A DNA stretch of 39,975 nt, from IMG/VR virus record IMGVR_UViG_3300045019_000032, positions 1 to 39,975 of that record. One strand, written 5' to 3'. The notes under the pieces are model-generated. The model was given only the letters and a program-made list of their open reading frames with translations. It was not told the DNA's origin and made no database searches. Shown here piece after piece: positions 25,133-39,975 of this stretch; position 1 is the first letter of the stretch, and every line of letters starts with the position of its first letter. This DNA is from a virus. A program made the translations under genes and the position numbers.

Positions 25133-25504
25133 TTATGTCGCCGGGTTTTGTTTTGCTTTTTCAAGAACATTGCGTAGCGCCTGGGCTTCTCGCTCTACGT
25201 CTTTTGGATTGTTTTTATTCGCAGGCGGGATTGAGATGCCGAGGCGCCTCGCCGCGATACGGGCATCGGTCATCCAATGCGGCTCAGCTAAATATGGGAG
25301 ATCCCGCTCGTCATAGCGGATTACAGACGTCTGTGATGTGTCACGCGTGCCAAGCTCATGGCCATTCTCGCGAGCCCAGAATAAGGGCTTCCCGTTTAAG
25401 CCAGCCCGGATGTTCTGGTCTACCGCTTCTTTCCCTGCGATCTCCCTGACCATATCGACGATGGCCGTGATAGTTGGCATCTCTTGCCGAAGATTTTTTT
25501 TCAT
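25133..25504 (-). CDS. hypothetical phage protein
   Basis: 123 residues, soluble, charged and mainly helical (MKKNLRQEMPTITAIVDMVR; C-terminus AQALRNVLEKAKQNPAT). The block IRYDERDLPYLAEPHWMTDA suggests a small defined domain, but I do not recognise a family. It is ten bases upstream of the 24481-25122 gene and likely co-transcribed with it. Its ATG (25504) touches the first of the GGTTAGACG repeats, so its leader is formed by the repeat array. Confidence 0.72.
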   Translation of the reverse strand: MKKNLRQEMPTITAIVDMVREIAGKEAVDQNIRAGLNGKPLFWARENGHELGTRDTSQTSVIRYDERDLPYLAEPHWMTDARIAARRLGISIPPANKNNPKDVEREAQALRNVLEKAKQNPAT

Positions 25505-25533
25505 TCGTCTAACCTCCCAAAGGTTAGACGGAA

Positions 25534-25745
25534 GGTTAGACGGCTGGAACCCGCATAAACACTGGGTTCGTCTAACCTCCTAACCTCGTCTAACCTTTTT
25601 TTGATGGTATGGAAAAAAATTAAGGGGGGAACCCACGCGCGTATACGCGTGCGCGCGCACGTATGCGCGTATTTTCGAAAACAGGTTAGGAGGTTAGACG
25701 GATCGCCTGAAACCCAGTATCCATGCGGGTTCCAGCCGTCTAACC
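25534..25745. repeat. large imperfect inverted repeat with ~62-bp arms
   Basis: The 23 bases at 25534-25556 are the exact reverse complement of 25723-25745; ACTGGGTT at 25561-25568 matches AACCCAGT at 25711-25718; and 25569-25585 matches 25684-25700. One arm has a 10-base insertion. In addition, 25569-25595 is the exact 27-base reverse complement of 25758-25784. The symmetry centre is near 25640, inside the alternating pyrimidine-purine tract. Confidence 0.85.
25634..25672. other. 39-bp alternating pyrimidine-purine tract
   Basis: Every base from 25634 to 25672 alternates pyrimidine and purine (CACGCGCGTATACGCG and onward). Such tracts, rich in CG and CA steps, readily form left-handed Z-DNA under negative supercoiling. 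It lies at the symmetry centre of the large inverted repeat. Confidence 0.85.
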
Positions 25746-25805
25746 TCGAAAAACGCAGGTTAGACGAGGTTAGGAGGTTAGACGGATTTTGAAGCGCCCC
25801 GCTGG

Positions 25806-25907
25806 CCTTTTCCGCCCGCAGCATTGCCGCGCACGATCTCTGGCACAACGTAACACCCTGCCCCTGCGCCTTTTCCGCCCGCGACAATGCCGCACACGAT
25901 CCCTGGC
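25806..25907. repeat. imperfect 39-bp direct repeat, 63-bp period
   Basis: 25806-25844 and 25869-25907 share the pattern CCTTTTCCGCCCGC, then CA(T/A)TGCCGC(G/A)CACGATC(T/C)CTGGC, with about five differences. They lie between the motif array and the end of the helicase-primase gene and may be part of the same origin region. Confidence 0.75.
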
Positions 25908-25930: not shown

Positions 25931-28537
25931 TTAGATGGGGAGATCATCATCCTCTCCATCTTTCCCTGCGTCAATACCTTCCGCTTGCGCAACCGGTCTA
26001 TCTTCGGGCCTTGCGTAGTAAAATTCCCGAGCGCCGGTTGTATCGCGCCTCTTCTCCCATCCCAATTTGCGCATGATGTTCGATATGCGCATTGTTTCGG
26101 TCTTGGCATTACTGATCTTGCCAATCTCGATATGAAGTGCCCTGGTCAGCAATTCACGGCCTGTGATACGCATAATGCGCTCTGCACGGGTCGGATTCCC
26201 GTCCGTGTCCAGTCCTTCCAGATATTCCCAGATACGACCTGTCCATTCGTCCCAGATTTCACGGCTGCTCTGTTGCGGACCAATGATGTCCCGCTGCTGC
26301 TCGCGGGTCGGATACCATTTCACCCCGGCCCGCATCATATGCACCGCCTCACCGAACAGCTGCTCGCGATCGCGACGCAGGCCATCCAGATCGAGGCGGC
26401 CGGTATCAACAGGCCAGAAACGACGGTTGCCGGTCGGGTCTTTGAAATACTGGTTTTCGTTCGTCGTCGCGGCGAAGACGGTCCGCCTTGGCTGATTCTT
26501 CATTCGGCGACCGTAAGGCTCTCTATAGCGGTCCTTTTGGCTCGACATGAACGCCTTGACCGCCGTGACCTCGGACCGGTTGAACTGCTCCAGTTCGGCG
26601 ATCTCGTAAATCAGGATGCCCTGAATCGACAGATAACCGTCTTTTTCGCCCATACGAAAAGGCGTATCTGCAAACCATTCGCCCCCCAGTATGGACAGCG
26701 CCGTCGATTTGCCTTCGCCTTGTGAGCCCTCGAACACCGGCGCGTCGTCGTGCTTGATGCCAGGGACATATGCCCGCTTTGCCAACCCGACGAAAAACAT
26801 CGTGCTAACCAAGCTGAGGTATTCAGAGGCAGTCGCGCCCCAGTACGTTGCAAACGCCTCAGCAACGCGCGGCACGCCATCCCATCGCTCAGCGCAATCC
26901 TCAAACAAATCTATAACGGGATTGAAACCGTTTTCACGGGCGATTTGCGCAACGGCCTTTTCTATATCGCCGACCGCTGCGATGACCAACCCGTAATGCT
27001 CAGCCAGATACATGCCAAGCTGAAAATCGTCACCCTCATTCCATTCCCCAGGCTCGGACGACCAAGGCGGATTCTTTCGCTTCACTTGCAATAACGCGAA
27101 CTGGTCAAGTGCTACCAATCCGACCAGCAACGCATCGTATTTCAACGCGATGTAGACGTTCTCCCGGCAGCCCTTTACGCCGCCCATCCCGGCACCAATC
27201 ATTTTTTCGCGGATCGCACTGCGCTTCATGCCGCGCGCGCTAGCCGAGGAAGGGGTAGAAGCCGCATTACGGCCTTCATCATCACGAGGAACGAGGCGCA
27301 GTGGCACGACGTTAGAATTCTGCGCCTGATCCGATTCAGGACCGGATGTGACCCACTCGGGCACGCCCTCCGCGTCTTCGGCGGGGCTGGTTTCTATTTC
27401 ATCGGAATCATCAGGCCGAAGCCGCTCAAGCCACGCATCAACCTCAGCCCGATCGGCACCACCTGTGATGAGATCATGAATGTCCCATCCGTCATGACCA
27501 TCATCGTCCACCTGAAAGCCACCATGCGCCGCATCCGGCCCTGGAATGTCCACCATTCGGACAACGCTTCCAAGCCCCTGCAGATGCTCGGACAGTTTGA
27601 GCATGGTAGACATGCCCGGCTGCTCCGCTTCAGGCATGATCTGACCGGCCATGACATGACCGTCCTTGAACGTCTTGGCATCGGCATCCGGCCAAAGCAC
27701 CACCCGCCGCCCGGCCAACGCAGACCAGTCGGCTTTCAATACCGCCTTGCCACCGCCGGGCCATGACGCCACATCCCAGGAATCGAGCAGCATCTCATAC
27801 GCCGTATCCGCGCACTTTTCACCCTCGACAATCAGAACAGGAAATTCCGGCCGCAACGCTCCAGGCAAATACAGCGGCCGAGGCTCAGGAAACTGCATCC
27901 ATCTCCAGTCACGCTTGCCAGTAATCGAATGCTCAGCGTAGACGCATGGCAGGACTTCTTTGCCACCGGTCGACGTGCGGAAGCGGTAGATGACTCCCAG
28001 AAGGCGGCGCTGCTGGTCTTTGTATTCCCACAGCTTTTCCGGACGACCGCGTTTGACATGGGCAACTGGATACGTCGGAGCATCGATCGGAACCGGCAAA
28101 ACTGGAACCCAATCCGATCGCGGACCACCTTTCGTTTTCTCTTCTACCCCTTGTCGGGCTTGCGCAGGCGCGGATTTCTGCGGCGATGTTGAGTTGACGA
28201 CTTTCGAGCTGCTGGCTATCGCCGTCTGAGCGCCGGCGAGCTGAACGCCCAGTTCGCGCGCGAGTGCTGCGCACGCTTTACCTTGAGACAAGCTGTGAAT
28301 AAAAGCATAAAGCGAAATTAGATCGCGGCCGGCGTCGCCGTCCGAGGAAAAATCAGACCAGTAACCGGCCTTCGGGCCGGTTAGTCGAATACGCATTGAC
28401 TTGCCGGCTTCGCCGGAACGACTACCAATACAAAATTCGTGGCCGTCGATTACGCCGGCAGGAAACCAATCCTTGAGCAGCGATTCGATCTGCAGTAATG
28501 CCGCGTCTGCTACTCTGCCGAAATCTTCGAGATCCAC
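25931..28537 (-). CDS. replicative helicase-primase, VapE/D5-like C-terminal domain
   Basis: 868 residues. The N-terminal third is primase-like: it has a GYWSDFSSDGDAGRDLISLY block, and later a TOPRIM-like strand-turn PVLIVEGEKCADTA (~240). The C-terminal half is a VapE-type superfamily 3-like helicase with Walker A FEGSQGEGKST (~615) and further motifs (LIYEIAELEQFNRSEV, RRTVFAATTNENQYF, GNRRFWPV). It would start phage DNA synthesis and unwind the template. The start is probably GTG 28537 (GGAG about ten bases upstream). The adjacent repeat array (25506-25784) is its likely origin. It is in the leftward early operon behind cro. Confidence 0.9.
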   Translation of the reverse strand: MDLEDFGRVADAALLQIESLLKDWFPAGVIDGHEFCIGSRSGEAGKSMRIRLTGPKAGYWSDFSSDGDAGRDLISLYAFIHSLSQGKACAALARELGVQLAGAQTAIASSSKVVNSTSPQKSAPAQARQGVEEKTKGGPRSDWVPVLPVPIDAPTYPVAHVKRGRPEKLWEYKDQQRRLLGVIYRFRTSTGGKEVLPCVYAEHSITGKRDWRWMQFPEPRPLYLPGALRPEFPVLIVEGEKCADTAYEMLLDSWDVASWPGGGKAVLKADWSALAGRRVVLWPDADAKTFKDGHVMAGQIMPEAEQPGMSTMLKLSEHLQGLGSVVRMVDIPGPDAAHGGFQVDDDGHDGWDIHDLITGGADRAEVDAWLERLRPDDSDEIETSPAEDAEGVPEWVTSGPESDQAQNSNVVPLRLVPRDDEGRNAASTPSSASARGMKRSAIREKMIGAGMGGVKGCRENVYIALKYDALLVGLVALDQFALLQVKRKNPPWSSEPGEWNEGDDFQLGMYLAEHYGLVIAAVGDIEKAVAQIARENGFNPVIDLFEDCAERWDGVPRVAEAFATYWGATASEYLSLVSTMFFVGLAKRAYVPGIKHDDAPVFEGSQGEGKSTALSILGGEWFADTPFRMGEKDGYLSIQGILIYEIAELEQFNRSEVTAVKAFMSSQKDRYREPYGRRMKNQPRRTVFAATTNENQYFKDPTGNRRFWPVDTGRLDLDGLRRDREQLFGEAVHMMRAGVKWYPTREQQRDIIGPQQSSREIWDEWTGRIWEYLEGLDTDGNPTRAERIMRITGRELLTRALHIEIGKISNAKTETMRISNIMRKLGWEKRRDTTGAREFYYARPEDRPVAQAEGIDAGKDGEDDDLPI

Positions 28538-32073: not shown

Positions 32074-32255
32074 AAGCGCCCCTACCTTACCGCGTCTCAA
32101 TCGTTTTTCCGCTCGGCGGATGCCTTTATGCCGGCATCAAGTGGAGGAGCCTTTCGACCAACCTTTTTCCTACGGCCGCCTTGTTCGTCGACGGCCGCTG
32201 CCAATACCGAGGCCAACTGACTGACGAGCAGATAAAGCGAATTGAAAGGGAATGA
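32064..32255 (+). CDS. small hypothetical protein
   Basis: 63 residues from ATG 32064, overlapping the previous gene by 10 bases. It is hydrophobic at the start (YRVSIVFPLGGCLYAGIKW) and polar at the end (GQLTDEQIKRIERE). Its stop region overlaps the ParB-like start. Not recognised. Confidence 0.62.
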   Translation: MCVKAPLPYRVSIVFPLGGCLYAGIKWRSLSTNLFPTAALFVDGRCQYRGQLTDEQIKRIERE

Positions 32256-32257
32256 AT

Positions 32258-34147
32258 ATGACAATTGAATCTACTGCAGAAAACTACAAAGCTCCGCATT
32301 TCGGCTACATCCCCATCACGTGCGTCGTGCCTTCGAAGACGAACCCACGCAAAACTTTTGACGAAAAAGGCCTGGAAGAGCTTGCGAAAAGCATCAAGGA
32401 ACATGGAGTCGCACAGCCAATTCTTGTTCGGCCGCTTCCGACCACCTCTGATTCCATTGACGCAGTCGAGATCGTCGCCGGAGAGCGGCGTTACCGCGCA
32501 TCGATCATGGCTGAAATGGAGACTATTCCGGCGATCATGCGCAACCTTAGCGACGCCGAGGTTATGGAGCTGCAGGTCATCGAAAACCTGCAGCGGGAAG
32601 GCGTCAGCGATTACGAGGAGGCCGAAGGCTACGGGAAATTGATCCAGCAGCTTGGCTACAAAAAAGATGACATCGCGAAGAAAATCGGGAAAAGCCGGTC
32701 CTATGTTTATGGTCGGCTTAAGTTGCTCGAATTGGCTCCGGCGGCGCGTAGCATACTTGCCGACCACAGCATCCCGTCGTCTACCGCACTACTGATCGCT
32801 CGCATTCCGATTGAGACGCTGCAGGAGAAAGCTGCGAAAGAAATCATCGGAAATCCAGAGCATCAGCAACCGATGTCCTATCGCGCGGCGGTGAAGCATA
32901 TCCAGGCACGCTACATGCTGGATCTGAACAGCGCGCCCTTTCCGCTTTCCGATAACAAGCTACTGCCGGCAGCAAGCAGCTGCATGAAATGTCCCAAACG
33001 TGCGGGCAATCAATCGGAGATTTTTGAAGGCATTGATGCAAACGTCTGCACGGACCCGGATTGTTATTCAGCGAAGCGCACCGCTCACAATGAAAAGGTT
33101 CTGGCTCAGGCTGAAAAGAAAGGCATCCCAATCTACAGCCCTCAGGAAGCGCGAGAACTGCTCACCGATGATCTTAGTACTGGAGACAGCTATCTCTATA
33201 ACTTCGAACGGCCAGACGTAGATAGCAGTACTCGATGCAAAAGCGTTGATGACCTGCTGAAGCCTGAGCAGCTGCCAAAGCCCAAAGGCTACATCAAAGC
33301 AGCAGATGGAAAACCTGTTCCGATCTTTGAGAAGACAGCAGTCCAGGAGGCACTTGAGAAAGCCGGCCTATGCCACACGCTCGATGCGCACAACAAACTA
33401 ATAGCTGAGAAGCTTGCGCAACCAGAAGATCCTGCTGCGGCCGAGAAGCGGCGCGCTGAAGATGCCAAGCGTCAGGCGAGAATAGATCGGCAAAGCACAG
33501 AAACTGCCGTGCGGGTCAGCGCATACCGGCAGATTCGAGCGTCAATAATGGGTGGGCCAAATACGGAGGCGCTGCGTATTTTGGTCAGAGACATGAGCAC
33601 CGAGTATGGAATCCCAAATGAGCATTTGCCAGAGGTCTATCCCTGGTCAAATTATTCACGCGATGAAGCCGAAGATTTCATTGCGAAGGCAGAACATCAC
33701 CAATTGCTAATGATGATGTTCGATATGAACTTTCGCAGTTCGTTGGAAGCCAACCAATGGTCATTCGATGATGAGGGCAATCTGGATCTAGAAGATTCAG
33801 ATTACAAATCCTTGTCAAACCTTGCAGGTGTCTGCGGCATCGACATTGATGCCATTAGAGCGGTCGCGCATAAGGTCGTTGAACCGGACCCTGAGCCATC
33901 GACTGAGCCATCAAGCGAACAAGCGATGACTGAGCCCCCACCAGGTGCTGAACCGGCACCAGCGCCGAAAGCTAAGAAGAAGACATCGAAAAAATCGGAG
34001 GCTGACAGCGTCGGCACGGTGGAGAGTCGCCCGGATGATGCAGACCCAGGCATTCAAATCGATGATGGGAAAAGATTGCCATCTCCAGCGAGCGACAAGA
34101 TCGAAGATCCTGCCGAATGGCCTTTTCCAACCAGCGCCGGTAAATGA
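32258..34147 (+). CDS. ParB/RepB/Spo0J-family protein
   Basis: About 629 residues from ATG 32258; AAAGGG is seven bases upstream, better placed than for the in-frame ATG 32252. The ParB N-terminal domain is clear: VVPSKTNPRKTFDEKGLEELA, then IVAGERRYRASIMAE (CTP-binding GERRYRA box) and the ENLQREGVSDYEEAEGY box, followed by a helix-turn-helix (DIAKKIGKSRSYVYGRLKLL). After that there are Cys-containing segments (SSCMKCPKR, CTDPDCYS) and an acidic, Pro-rich tail. ParB proteins slide on DNA as CTP-dependent clamps. With no ParA here and a phage setting, it may act in replication, gene regulation, or as a nuclease-type ParB; plasmid-like partition is less likely. Confidence 0.9.
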   Translation: MTIESTAENYKAPHFGYIPITCVVPSKTNPRKTFDEKGLEELAKSIKEHGVAQPILVRPLPTTSDSIDAVEIVAGERRYRASIMAEMETIPAIMRNLSDAEVMELQVIENLQREGVSDYEEAEGYGKLIQQLGYKKDDIAKKIGKSRSYVYGRLKLLELAPAARSILADHSIPSSTALLIARIPIETLQEKAAKEIIGNPEHQQPMSYRAAVKHIQARYMLDLNSAPFPLSDNKLLPAASSCMKCPKRAGNQSEIFEGIDANVCTDPDCYSAKRTAHNEKVLAQAEKKGIPIYSPQEARELLTDDLSTGDSYLYNFERPDVDSSTRCKSVDDLLKPEQLPKPKGYIKAADGKPVPIFEKTAVQEALEKAGLCHTLDAHNKLIAEKLAQPEDPAAAEKRRAEDAKRQARIDRQSTETAVRVSAYRQIRASIMGGPNTEALRILVRDMSTEYGIPNEHLPEVYPWSNYSRDEAEDFIAKAEHHQLLMMMFDMNFRSSLEANQWSFDDEGNLDLEDSDYKSLSNLAGVCGIDIDAIRAVAHKVVEPDPEPSTEPSSEQAMTEPPPGAEPAPAPKAKKKTSKKSEADSVGTVESRPDDADPGIQIDDGKRLPSPASDKIEDPAEWPFPTSAGK

Positions 34148-37090: not shown

Positions 37091-38143
37091 CTACTCTGGT
37101 AGATTTTCTTGCGATTTTGAGGAATCTGTAGTGGACCCCTTATGCAAATCTTCCGGCTTGAGGTTTGTATACCTCTTTAGATGCCGCCAGTCTTTGTGTC
37201 CTGTCACTAGCGCAACCTGTTGAATTTCGTAGCCATTTTCAAACAGCTTTGAAGTACCTTCATGCCGCATGTCATGAAGATGCAAGTCAGGAATCCCAAG
37301 CGCCTTACACGCTTCCTTGAAGTATTTTGATAATGTCTGCGGATGGATTGGGAAAATACGAGGATCACCGTCTTTACGCGGCTGGCGCTGCATCAATTCC
37401 CACGTCCCGCCCAACAACGGAATCCATTCATCGTTTCCGATTTTCTTTCGCGGATGCTTTCGGTCGCGGATCATGACTAGCTTTTTCTTATCATCAACAT
37501 CAGCCCAAACGATCCGGCATATTTCCGCTCGCCGCATTGCCGTCATCACCGCGAACTCGACGGCGTCGGCATAAACCGGCCCTTTATTTCCAGCAAGCCA
37601 TTTGACTAGGCGCGGCAACTCGTCTTCATTGGTCCGTCGCTCACGCCGGCCGCCGGAGCCGATTAAGCCGAGGTGAGTAAGAAGTGGGCGAGCTTGACCG
37701 ACCACGTCGGGAAGCGTCACCTTCAGCGCAACGCTTGCATAGCGCATGGCGGTCCCCAGTTTGGAGATTTCCATATTGCATGTGTACGGCCCAGCACCCT
37801 CCTCCTTTCGCATCTGACAGAAATCGACCAGATCCTGTGGAGATAGCGAACCGGCCCGCTTTGCGCCTAGCCCTTCGGACAGATGCTTCAACATATAGTG
37901 TTCGTTGGATGTGTCGGCAATCGGCCGGGACCGATCCCGCAGCTCGCGATACGCCTGGATGACTTCACTGACCCGCAGGATTCCCGGCTCTGCTACAATT
38001 TCGCCTCGGTCGATCTCGGATTCGCGCTGACGTGCCCAAATCTCTGCTTGCGCTTTGACTTTGAAGGTCTTGCATAAGGATTTGTGGCCTTTCCGTCGGA
38101 TTAGGACGCGCCAAGACGAACCAACCTTTGTGATGCTCGCCAT
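37091..38143 (-). CDS. int: phage integrase, tyrosine recombinase family
   Basis: 350 residues. The arm-binding N-terminus (WRVLIRRKGHKSLCKTFKVK) and a core-binding helical domain (~65-145) precede the catalytic domain. Catalytic residues visible: Arg204 (TAMRRAEICR), a Lys in the DRKHPRKK hairpin, HDMRHEG with His290 and Arg293, GHKDWRH with His316, and nucleophile Tyr325 in LKRYTN. It would catalyse integration and, with an excisionase, excision. It lies at the phage end next to tRNA-Arg. Upstream of its ATG are three direct GTATCACT repeats (38144-38173), possible arm-type or regulatory sites. Confidence 0.95.
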   Translation of the reverse strand: MASITKVGSSWRVLIRRKGHKSLCKTFKVKAQAEIWARQRESEIDRGEIVAEPGILRVSEVIQAYRELRDRSRPIADTSNEHYMLKHLSEGLGAKRAGSLSPQDLVDFCQMRKEEGAGPYTCNMEISKLGTAMRYASVALKVTLPDVVGQARPLLTHLGLIGSGGRRERRTNEDELPRLVKWLAGNKGPVYADAVEFAVMTAMRRAEICRIVWADVDDKKKLVMIRDRKHPRKKIGNDEWIPLLGGTWELMQRQPRKDGDPRIFPIHPQTLSKYFKEACKALGIPDLHLHDMRHEGTSKLFENGYEIQQVALVTGHKDWRHLKRYTNLKPEDLHKGSTTDSSKSQENLPE

Positions 38144-38186
38144 GTATCACTCTCCGTATCACTTTGTATCACTGAGCAGATGATAC
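38144..38186. repeat. three direct GTATCACT repeats plus one inverted half-site
   Basis: GTATCACT at 38144-38151, 38156-38163 and 38166-38173, and the inverted core TGATAC at 38181-38186. They begin right after the first base of the integrase gene and point toward the tRNA. Likely recombinase or excisionase binding sites, by position. Confidence 0.55.
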
Positions 38187-38250
38187 AGGATGATATTGAA
38201 AGAGTGTCACAGAGGGAAAACGGGTGTAGAATGACCCCGTTTATCCCCCA

Positions 38251-38326
38251 TCTCGCCGTAGTTCAATGGATAGAACGAGTGCCTCCTAAGCGCTAGATAC
38301 AGGTTCGATTCCTGTCGGCGGGACCA
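38251..38326 (+). tRNA. tRNA-Arg, anticodon CCU
   Basis: 76 bases including an encoded CCA. Acceptor stem TCTCGCC / GGCGGGA (one G-U pair), D-arm (GTTCAATGGATAGAAC), anticodon stem AGTGC / GCGCT with loop CTCCTAA (anticodon CCU at 38285-38287), T-arm with loop TTCGATT. It lies between the integrase end of the prophage and the host aceE gene, so it is the probable attachment locus, although the prophage is on its 5' side. Confidence 0.95.
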
Positions 38327-38426
38327 GTTTTCCTGATGCATTTCCCACATCCACTTCCTGTCTTTTCCCGCATTACCCTCCGCCTCGTAATCCGTGCCCA
38401 ATGGCCTGCAGGACTTTCTCCATCGC

Positions 38427-39975
38427 TCATGCCTCAGCCGAAAAGGCCTTCGCCAGATCCAGCCCTAACATTTGCGCGTCCCGCTCCAGTGCTGCCCGGT
38501 CCCTGCCCGGCAGGCTGCTCAAGGCCGTATAGGCGATCCACTTCGCGTCCACTTCAAAGAAATCGCGCAGATTGACACGCGTATCGCTGCGACCGAAGCC
38601 ATCCGTACCTAGCGTGACATATGGCACAGGGATGAAAGCGCGAATGCTTTCCGGCAATGCGCGTACATAGTCGCTGGCGGCGATCACCGGCGCGTCGCTT
38701 TGACTGAGCTGTGCTGTTACATAAGGCAATGCATCGGATCCTGTGAGCCGCTGTGCGCGCTGCGCCGCAACGCCATCACGTGCCAGTTCCGTGAAACTGG
38801 TGACGCTCCAGACTTCCGCGGCAATGCCGAATTTTTCCTGCAGCAGAATACCGGCGGCGATCGCTTCCTTGAGAATCGGACCCGCACCGAGCAGGCGTAC
38901 GTCGGCATGTTCCTGCGCCACCACCCGGTACATGCCGCGCAAAATCCCCGCTTCCATGCCGACCGGCAGGCTGGGTTGCGCTTCGTTCTCATTGGTGACC
39001 GTGAGGTAGTAAAAAACGTCTTCACCGTCGTCGAGCATGCGGCGCATGCCGTCCTGTACGATCACCGCCAGCTCGTAAGCATAGGCGGGATCGTAGGCGA
39101 TACAGTTCGGCACCGTGGCAGCAATCAGATGGCTGGAGCCATCCTGGTGCTGCAAGCCCTCGCCGGCCAGCGTCGTGCGGCCGGAGGTCGCGCCAACCAG
39201 AAAGCCTCGCGCACGCTGGTCTGCCGCCGCCCAGATCTGATCGCCGATACGCTGGAAGCCGAACATCGAGTAATAGATGTAAAACGGCAGCATCGGCATC
39301 CCATGCACCGAATAGCTGGTGGCAGCGGCCGTCCATGAAGCAATCGCGCCGGCTTCCGAAATGCCCTCCTCCAGGATCTGGCCATCCTTCGCTTCGCGGT
39401 AATAGAGGATCGAACCGATATCCTCGGGCTCATACAGCTGTCCCTGGGAAGAATAGATGCCGACCTGGCGGAACAGGTTGGCCATGCCGAAGGTGCGCGC
39501 CTCGTCAGCGACAATCGGAACGATATGCCTGCCGATGCCGTCGTCTTTCAGCAAAGCACCCAGTATGCGCACCAGCGCCATGGTGGTCGACATGTCCTTA
39601 CCGCCCGCTTCCAGCGCAAAGCGGGCATGCGTCTCGATTGCCGGGACCGGCACCTGCGCCTGCCCGACGCTGCGCCTGGGCATGAAGCCGCCAAGCGCGG
39701 CCCGTCTTGCAAGCAGATGACGCATTTCAGGACTGTCAGCCGGCGGCTTGTAAAACGCCAGCGCCTCGCAATCGGTGTCCGAAATCGGCAGCCGGAATCG
39801 GTCCCGGAATTCCAGCAGGGTGCCGGCATCCAGTTTTTTCTGCTGATGCGTGGTCATCTTGCCCTGCCCGGCGGCGCCCATGCCGTAGCCTTTCTTGGTC
39901 TGCGCCAGGATGACGGTTGGCTGGCCGCGATGCCGGAAGGCGGCGTCGTAGGCGGCATGGATTTTTTTCATATCA
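38427..39975 (-). CDS. aceE: pyruvate dehydrogenase E1 component, homodimeric type (3' part)
   Basis: The last ~516 codons of a gene that runs off the right edge. AceE proteins are about 890 residues, so more than a third is missing. Visible landmarks: TVILAQTKKGYGMG followed by MTTHQQKKLD, EARTFGMANLFRQVGIYSSQGQLYEP (split as in AceE), and GEGLQHQDGSSHLIAATVPN. The enzyme uses thiamine diphosphate to decarboxylate pyruvate and acetylate the lipoyl group of E2. It is a host housekeeping gene and marks the chromosome side of the junction. A related 2-oxo-acid dehydrogenase paralogue (MdeB-like) is possible. No aceF follows downstream here; the tRNA and prophage do. Confidence 0.92.
   Translation of the reverse strand, partial: DMKKIHAAYDAAFRHRGQPTVILAQTKKGYGMGAAGQGKMTTHQQKKLDAGTLLEFRDRFRLPISDTDCEALAFYKPPADSPEMRHLLARRAALGGFMPRRSVGQAQVPVPAIETHARFALEAGGKDMSTTMALVRILGALLKDDGIGRHIVPIVADEARTFGMANLFRQVGIYSSQGQLYEPEDIGSILYYREAKDGQILEEGISEAGAIASWTAAATSYSVHGMPMLPFYIYYSMFGFQRIGDQIWAAADQRARGFLVGATSGRTTLAGEGLQHQDGSSHLIAATVPNCIAYDPAYAYELAVIVQDGMRRMLDDGEDVFYYLTVTNENEAQPSLPVGMEAGILRGMYRVVAQEHADVRLLGAGPILKEAIAAGILLQEKFGIAAEVWSVTSFTELARDGVAAQRAQRLTGSDALPYVTAQLSQSDAPVIAASDYVRALPESIRAFIPVPYVTLGTDGFGRSDTRVNLRDFFEVDAKWIAYTALSSLPGRDRAALERDAQMLGLDLAKAFSAEA

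Follow-up and report, generated by a model that had tools for sequence, protein, structure and literature searches.

The SaPI replication protein Rep uses its C-terminal domain to recognise iterons that lie directly downstream of its own gene (PMC7581432). Origins of PICI elements always comprise two sets of iterons flanking an AT-rich region, and a cloning test of plasmid replication from rep plus ori has been carried out for EcCICFT073 (PMC6092414). In P4, which we compare by description, the alpha protein is a helicase-primase with a C-terminal winged helix that binds origin repeats (in part from PMC4234260). Replication of pRN1 needs a stem-loop behind the primase-helicase gene, and a stem-loop origin in this position was earlier proposed for both pRN1 and Bordetella BIP-1 (PMC4234260).

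The stretch of viral DNA analysed here (IMG/VR record IMGVR_UViG_3300045019_000032, 39,975 nucleotides in full; hereafter the window) contains a repeat array 147 bp past the stop codon of a VapE-type helicase-primase gene. This array is very probably the place where the phage starts copying its DNA, as an origin of the pri-rep-ori kind. The likeness to SaPI and PICI replicons extends to a related gene for a self-loading Rep/PriRep helicase (PF05272; PriRep1 by sequence and by fold), to iterons directly downstream of that gene, in the window as in relatives, to a pair of iteron groups with a readily melting segment between them, here A/T runs and a 39-bp tract, and to iterons that are specific to the element (PMC7581432, PMC6092414). 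The layout was already in print, and the suggestion in the initial annotation of a new kind of origin is not supported. Differences are nonetheless apparent. The window is a prophage-like element and no known satellite, and the comparison covers the replicon alone; its arms are mirrored, with a fixed spacer of 26 or 36 bp that encloses a 21-bp core; and its centre combines A/T runs with an alternating purine-pyrimidine tract. Whereas P4 has separate ori and crr sites, the window has one two-arm site behind the gene, with another iteron and another helicase family. With pRN1 and BIP-1 it shares an inverted repeat behind a primase-helicase gene (PMC4234260), to which it adds iterons and a conserved core. 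A literature search joining phage replication origin, iterons and VapE gave no match, and searches for the 9-mers returned, among the matches listed, papers on unrelated subjects, apparently through primer sequences.

Anatomy of the repeat array

The 9-mer GGTTAGACG occurs nine times in the window, against 0.11 copies expected per 40 kb, and every copy falls inside 25506-25784 (Table 1); none of 100 shuffled sequences reached nine copies. The five direct and four inverted copies counted in the initial annotation are all exact, and the extended form AGGTTAGACG is likewise exact in nine of nine. The three partial copies reported alongside them (AGGTTAGGAG or GGTTAGGAG) could be located, and the description of the space as free of genes agrees with the absence of any open reading frame with a family match inside the array.

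Table 1. Positions in the window of the array, its component parts and the neighbouring genes.
Feature	Position	Strand	Remarks
Left arm of the putative origin	25506-25596		Iterons 25506(-), 25522(+), 25534(+), 25569(-), 25587(-); partial AGGTTAGGAG 25577(-); core 1
Right arm of the putative origin	25683-25784		Iterons 25692(+), 25737(-), 25758(+), 25776(+); partials 25684(+), 25768(+); core 2
GGTTAGACG, five copies	25522, 25534, 25692, 25758, 25776	+	
GGTTAGACG, four copies	25506, 25569, 25587, 25737	-	
Core 1, AACCCGCATAAACACTGGGTT	25548-25568	+	Between inverted iterons 26 bp apart
Core 2, AACCCGCATGGATACTGGGTT on minus strand	25711-25731	-	Between inverted iterons 36 bp apart
5-bp linker GCTGG, strong-half side of core 1	25543-25547	+	Mirror CCAGC at 25732-25736; linker of 5 in relatives
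10-bp insertion GATCGCCTGA	25701-25710		Lengthens arm 2 over arm 1 by one helical turn
Alternating purine-pyrimidine tract, 39 bp	25634-25672		Strictly alternating; middle of array
Imperfect 40-bp direct repeat	25805-25907		Between array and end of helicase gene; L316/L317 have one similar copy behind the gene
VapE-type helicase-primase, proposed initiator	25931-28537	-	Pfam PF05272, E 1.4e-69; PHROG DNA helicase and primase families
Winged-helix-like C-terminal segment (about residues 790-845), proposed iteron-binding domain	26003-26170	-	AlphaFold; use of the C-terminal domain by SaPI Rep (PMC7581432)
123-aa protein	25133-25504	-	Far side of array; similar reading frame after the array in L316-L318

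The two arms face each other as a large inverted repeat, with one inverted match of 36 nt at 92% (25533-25568 with 25711-25746) and a second of 28 nt at 100% (25569-25596 with 25757-25784). The initial annotation had given the arms about 62 bp with one 10-base indel and a further exact inverted match of 27 bases; the indel, a single insertion, stands, the gapped alignment comprises 54 positions, and the exact match does overlap the arms but measures 28. As single-stranded DNA the array folds far better than shuffled sequences (z -12.2), and a cruciform or an RNA structure had been offered as an alternative account of the inverted repeat. The arms of relatives break the pairing freely, however, and the testable pair of the core shows no covariation; a mirrored pair of arms that bind protein is the better reading of the repeat. 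An Rfam scan scored only a tRNA in the window, the best match within the array staying below the gathering threshold, and membership of an RNA family was rejected.

The 39-bp tract between the arms is the only alternating purine-pyrimidine run of at least 16 in the window, and the longest such run in 200 Markov-generated sequences of window length was 23. Ten relatives also have the longest alternating run of their locus within the array (14 to 30 bp); the tract is absent from L140 and L173. Together with the neighbouring A/T runs, this Z-DNA-prone tract is a candidate for the region that opens. Both the tract and the 21-bp cores had been overlooked in the initial annotation.

The helicase-primase and the arrays of its relatives

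A profile of the helicase-primase, compared with solved structures, has as its sole sequence match PriRep1 bound to double-stranded DNA (PDB 7pds, E 1.3e-69). PriRep1 also leads the fold comparison, in which the NrS-1 and poxvirus D5 helicases match as well. In the AlphaFold model (mean pLDDT 69.6, built on only 8 sequences), the predicted C-terminus follows the helix-helix-helix-strand-strand order expected of a winged helix, and by analogy with SaPI Rep this segment is proposed to bind the iterons.

A two-arm array lies directly behind the homologous gene in ten relatives, namely eight viral contigs (L105, L128, L129, L135, L152, L316, L317 and L318) and two isolated phages. Among isolated phages, Pseudomonas U5 and Marinobacter PS3 have an array behind the VapE gene, each with an iteron of its own (GTGGGACAG and GGGGTGACC, respectively), and Staphylococcus S1 has repeats there, again with its own iteron (TGATGCAACA). 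L180 and L181 contain the same array in loci where the gene is not visible. No clear array was found behind the VapE gene of Acidovorax Aval, VarioGold or Burkholderia Mica, and none comparable behind the gene of BPP-1. Five loci (L140, L154, L161, L173 and L175) keep the iteron GGTTAGACG and hold another insert, CATTGGTATGACTGG-like, between the inverted iterons. In five loci of one phage group, unrelated GTTAGACGAAA or GTTAGCCG arrays extend across several intergenic spaces.

The initial annotation had named a lack of such arrays in homologous phages as evidence against an iteron origin; two-arm arrays are in fact kept behind the same gene in relatives. With the resemblance of the protein to PriRep1 and an anatomy like that of SaPI and PICI origins (PMC7581432, PMC6092414), these arrays leave the iteron origin well supported.

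In the mechanism that we propose, the initiator would be the helicase-primase, whose gene lies directly upstream. Its C-terminal winged helix would contact the iterons specific to this phage; the protein would form a complex on the mirrored pair of arms and open the stretch that separates them, with its A/T and alternating purine-pyrimidine sequence. Each arm's 21-bp core, set between inverted iterons whose distance is fixed at 26 bp, or at 36 bp with one turn more, would bind as duplex a shared architectural protein, probably a host factor that bends DNA.

Repeat arrays can also act as centromeres, and the prophage encodes a ParB-like protein with ParB_N and HTH_ParB domains (32252-34147). 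It is nevertheless highly improbable that the array is a partition or regulatory site, whether an operator array or parS-like, serving this protein or a repressor in place of an origin: the array follows the helicase gene in relatives, and the one promoter-like site in the region, where 0.4 would be expected, is outside the array.

Occurrence of the 21-bp core

The piece that blastn finds in common with unrelated phages is not the iteron but the core between inverted iterons, an imperfect inverted repeat of 21 bp (AASCCGCATRRAYRCTGGSTT) present once in each arm. At least 119 viral stretches contain the pattern AACCCGCATNNANNCTGGGTT, and none contains its reversed form; the pattern fixes 17 of the 21 positions, at which conservation is given by construction, and only positions 3, 10, 11, 13, 14 and 19 and the flanks are informative. 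On the AACCCAG strand the free positions are Y in 96%, R in 98%, Y in 100% and Y in 97% of copies, and the flank on the side of the strong half is biased around CC(K)(S)A (211 non-redundant copies).

Element-specific 8-mer repeats flank the core in 52 of 97 viral loci at p<=0.02 relative to shuffles, and they vary by phage (AGTTGGCA, CTCTACAA, AAGTGGGC, GCGTAAGA and others). In a group of related Pseudomonas phages (D3, PAJU2, PMG1 and Ab03) a variant core is retained as the repeats on both sides change, and the Klebsiella jumbo phage RaK2 has two cores with the phage-specific repeat AATTAGGGACAC. Primases and helicases prevail among the nearest long genes, with integrases in second place: about 20 of 45 encode replication proteins, of families that can overlap (DUF5906, 7; VapE, 5; AAA_25, 5; others), and nine have integrase domains. 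In four phages the core is upstream of the terminase/portal block, up to about two kb away.

Plasmids carry the core as well, in their origin regions. The 4073-bp MOBQ4 plasmids of E. coli have it at 429-449, followed by a DnaA-box-like TTATCCACA near 543, four iterons at about 655-740 and rep from 836; pMRY16-002_6 of E. coli, a small mobilizable plasmid common in E. coli and Salmonella, has an exact copy between mobC and the iterons. In pIGWZ12-type plasmids the origin is upstream of rep, with iterons, an AT-rich region and DnaA boxes (PMC6856555). The core also adjoins repB in a plasmid from an enrichment culture, and two near-copies are present in the origin region of a Massilia plasmid.

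The core is degenerate in several close relatives of the window (L128, L161, L181 and L316) and is therefore not indispensable. No copy with up to 2 mismatches was found in the surroundings of the window's own integrase. Random samples of host genomes contained the core in 2 of 150 from the order of a Comamonas genome and in 4 of 148 from the class of Massiliimalia, the starting genome being included each time and the reversed control giving 0 in both; this low frequency makes the core unlike a host operator. A role as transcription terminator was rejected, the nearest long genes facing the core in only 34 of 70 cases, and so was a link of the core to one trans-acting gene, since no cluster of open reading frames was represented in more than 20 of 102 loci.

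Helical spacing, attachment sites and the form of the core

In Clostridia and in a single genome of Burkholderiales, the core comes after the 3' end of guaA or lysS (gene identity confirmed by Pfam for L292, L309 and L210). L292 and L309 have an integrase in the vicinity, and the far side of the core usually bears two short direct repeats spaced by about one turn. At the guaA end, GAGTGGGA and the core are separated by 25-29 bp in 22 of 26 non-redundant cases and by 38 bp in the other 4, in both orientations; for lysS the separation is 26-28 in four cases and 36-38 in three. These sets are small and partly related by descent. Six tRNA sites gave distances of 26, 29, 35, 41, 42 and 63, with no clear clusters. 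Between the inverted iterons, the spacer is 26 bp in arm 1 and 36 bp in arm 2 of the window, and 25 or 26 throughout the relatives. Clusters about 10 bp apart at guaA and lysS, taken with spacers of 26 and 36 bp, identify the 10-base indel of the window as the same one-turn step.

In lambda attP, IHF occupies architectural duplex sites between core-type and arm-type sites. The guaA and lysS cores resemble them in having the crossover region on one side and paired repeats on the other, at distances that step by the helical turn. An architectural duplex site is suggested by these steps of about 10 bp, by the indifference to orientation and by the location of the core, flanked by crossover and arm-like repeats. 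That the core is a double-stranded site for a shared architectural protein is, judged from sequence comparison, a tentative reading that falls just short of an even chance. The core seems to differ from the IHF sites of lambda: the IHF consensus was not seen in it by eye, and it is present in Clostridia, which make up many of its hosts. Clostridia are not known to have IHF, so IHF is unlikely to be the binder; HU or another conserved protein may take this role, and no protein is known to have the specificity of the core. In its widest form, to which we give somewhat less than even odds, this reading makes the core a common building block in the architecture of mobile DNA: a single protein, widely conserved among bacteria, would bind it, and mobile elements as varied as phages, iteron plasmids and integrating elements, in hosts that range from Proteobacteria to Clostridia, would each have built it in helical phase into nucleoprotein complexes that otherwise consist of element-specific sites.

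The core adjoins integrase arm-like repeats in the guaA and lysS elements, and the array might by this token be an attachment site, with arm-type repeats and core. The integrase gene of the window (37091-38143) and its tRNA are, however, 11 kb away, the arrays of relatives stay beside the helicase gene, and cores accompanied by repeats occur also in phages that are likely lytic, RaK2 among them. As the attP of this phage the array was rejected, and an attachment-site function scarcely deserves credence. The neighbours of the integrase gene are tRNA-Arg(cct) and a gene for pyruvate dehydrogenase E1, and this region (37091-39971) is the probable prophage boundary and attachment site.

The core could instead act as a single-strand hairpin or cruciform, for instance as a priming signal like ssiA and ssiB of RSF1010 or as a stem-loop origin of the pRN1 or BIP-1 kind. 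The two cores, each an imperfect inverted repeat, face each other from opposite strands, and the locus thereby recalls the RSF1010 oriV, with its iterons and two inverted hairpin elements in a like arrangement. The array as single-stranded DNA folds 12 sd above shuffles, the lower stems of the core are paired in a minority of copies (9.9% of 203 score >=7, compared with 1.2% of shuffles), and pRN1 offers the precedent of a stem-loop behind a primase-helicase gene (PMC4234260). Against this, the core stem is often broken in the arms of relatives, and single changes in the stem are common: pair 3-19 is changed on one side in 93 loci, on the other in 37 and on both in 17. At this testable pair, double change is no commoner than independence predicts (31/17/5/2 in one matched subtype; Fisher OR 0.73, p 1.0), and the pair gives no sign of an ssi-type stem kept by compensatory change. 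The occurrence of the core in att sites is a further difference from RSF1010, the 10-bp spacing steps point to duplex DNA, and BPP-1 is without such an array behind its gene. A hairpin function is, on this evidence, unlikely. The Y/R pattern had pointed to a version with wobble pairs and a bulged A, which is disfavoured by the lack of covariation and by the helical spacing.

In five loci the core sits, in either orientation, in the loop of terminator-like hairpins, as might be expected of a small hairpin that is itself mobile and targets the palindromes and terminators of mobile elements. This origin for the core is very doubtful: its spacings to iterons and att sites are fixed, no empty site was found, and a transposase family is absent from the commonest neighbour families.

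Returning to the duplex site, we consider it probable that the array is a prophage origin of the SaPI/PICI pri-rep-ori type whose cores are sites for a shared architectural protein, since the origin part carries most of that statement. The array provides a testable origin for a large group of VapE phages, and the anatomy of this origin, with its mirrored arms, 26-bp spacing and alternating purine-pyrimidine centre, is readable from sequence. The core is also a sequence tag for locating origins and attachment sites in metagenomes. If the reading of the core is true, unrelated mobile elements would need, for replication and for integration, a bacterial factor that has been overlooked, and because the core is present in pIGWZ12-type plasmids, which are small plasmids of E. 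coli, this factor could be sought in a standard laboratory strain.
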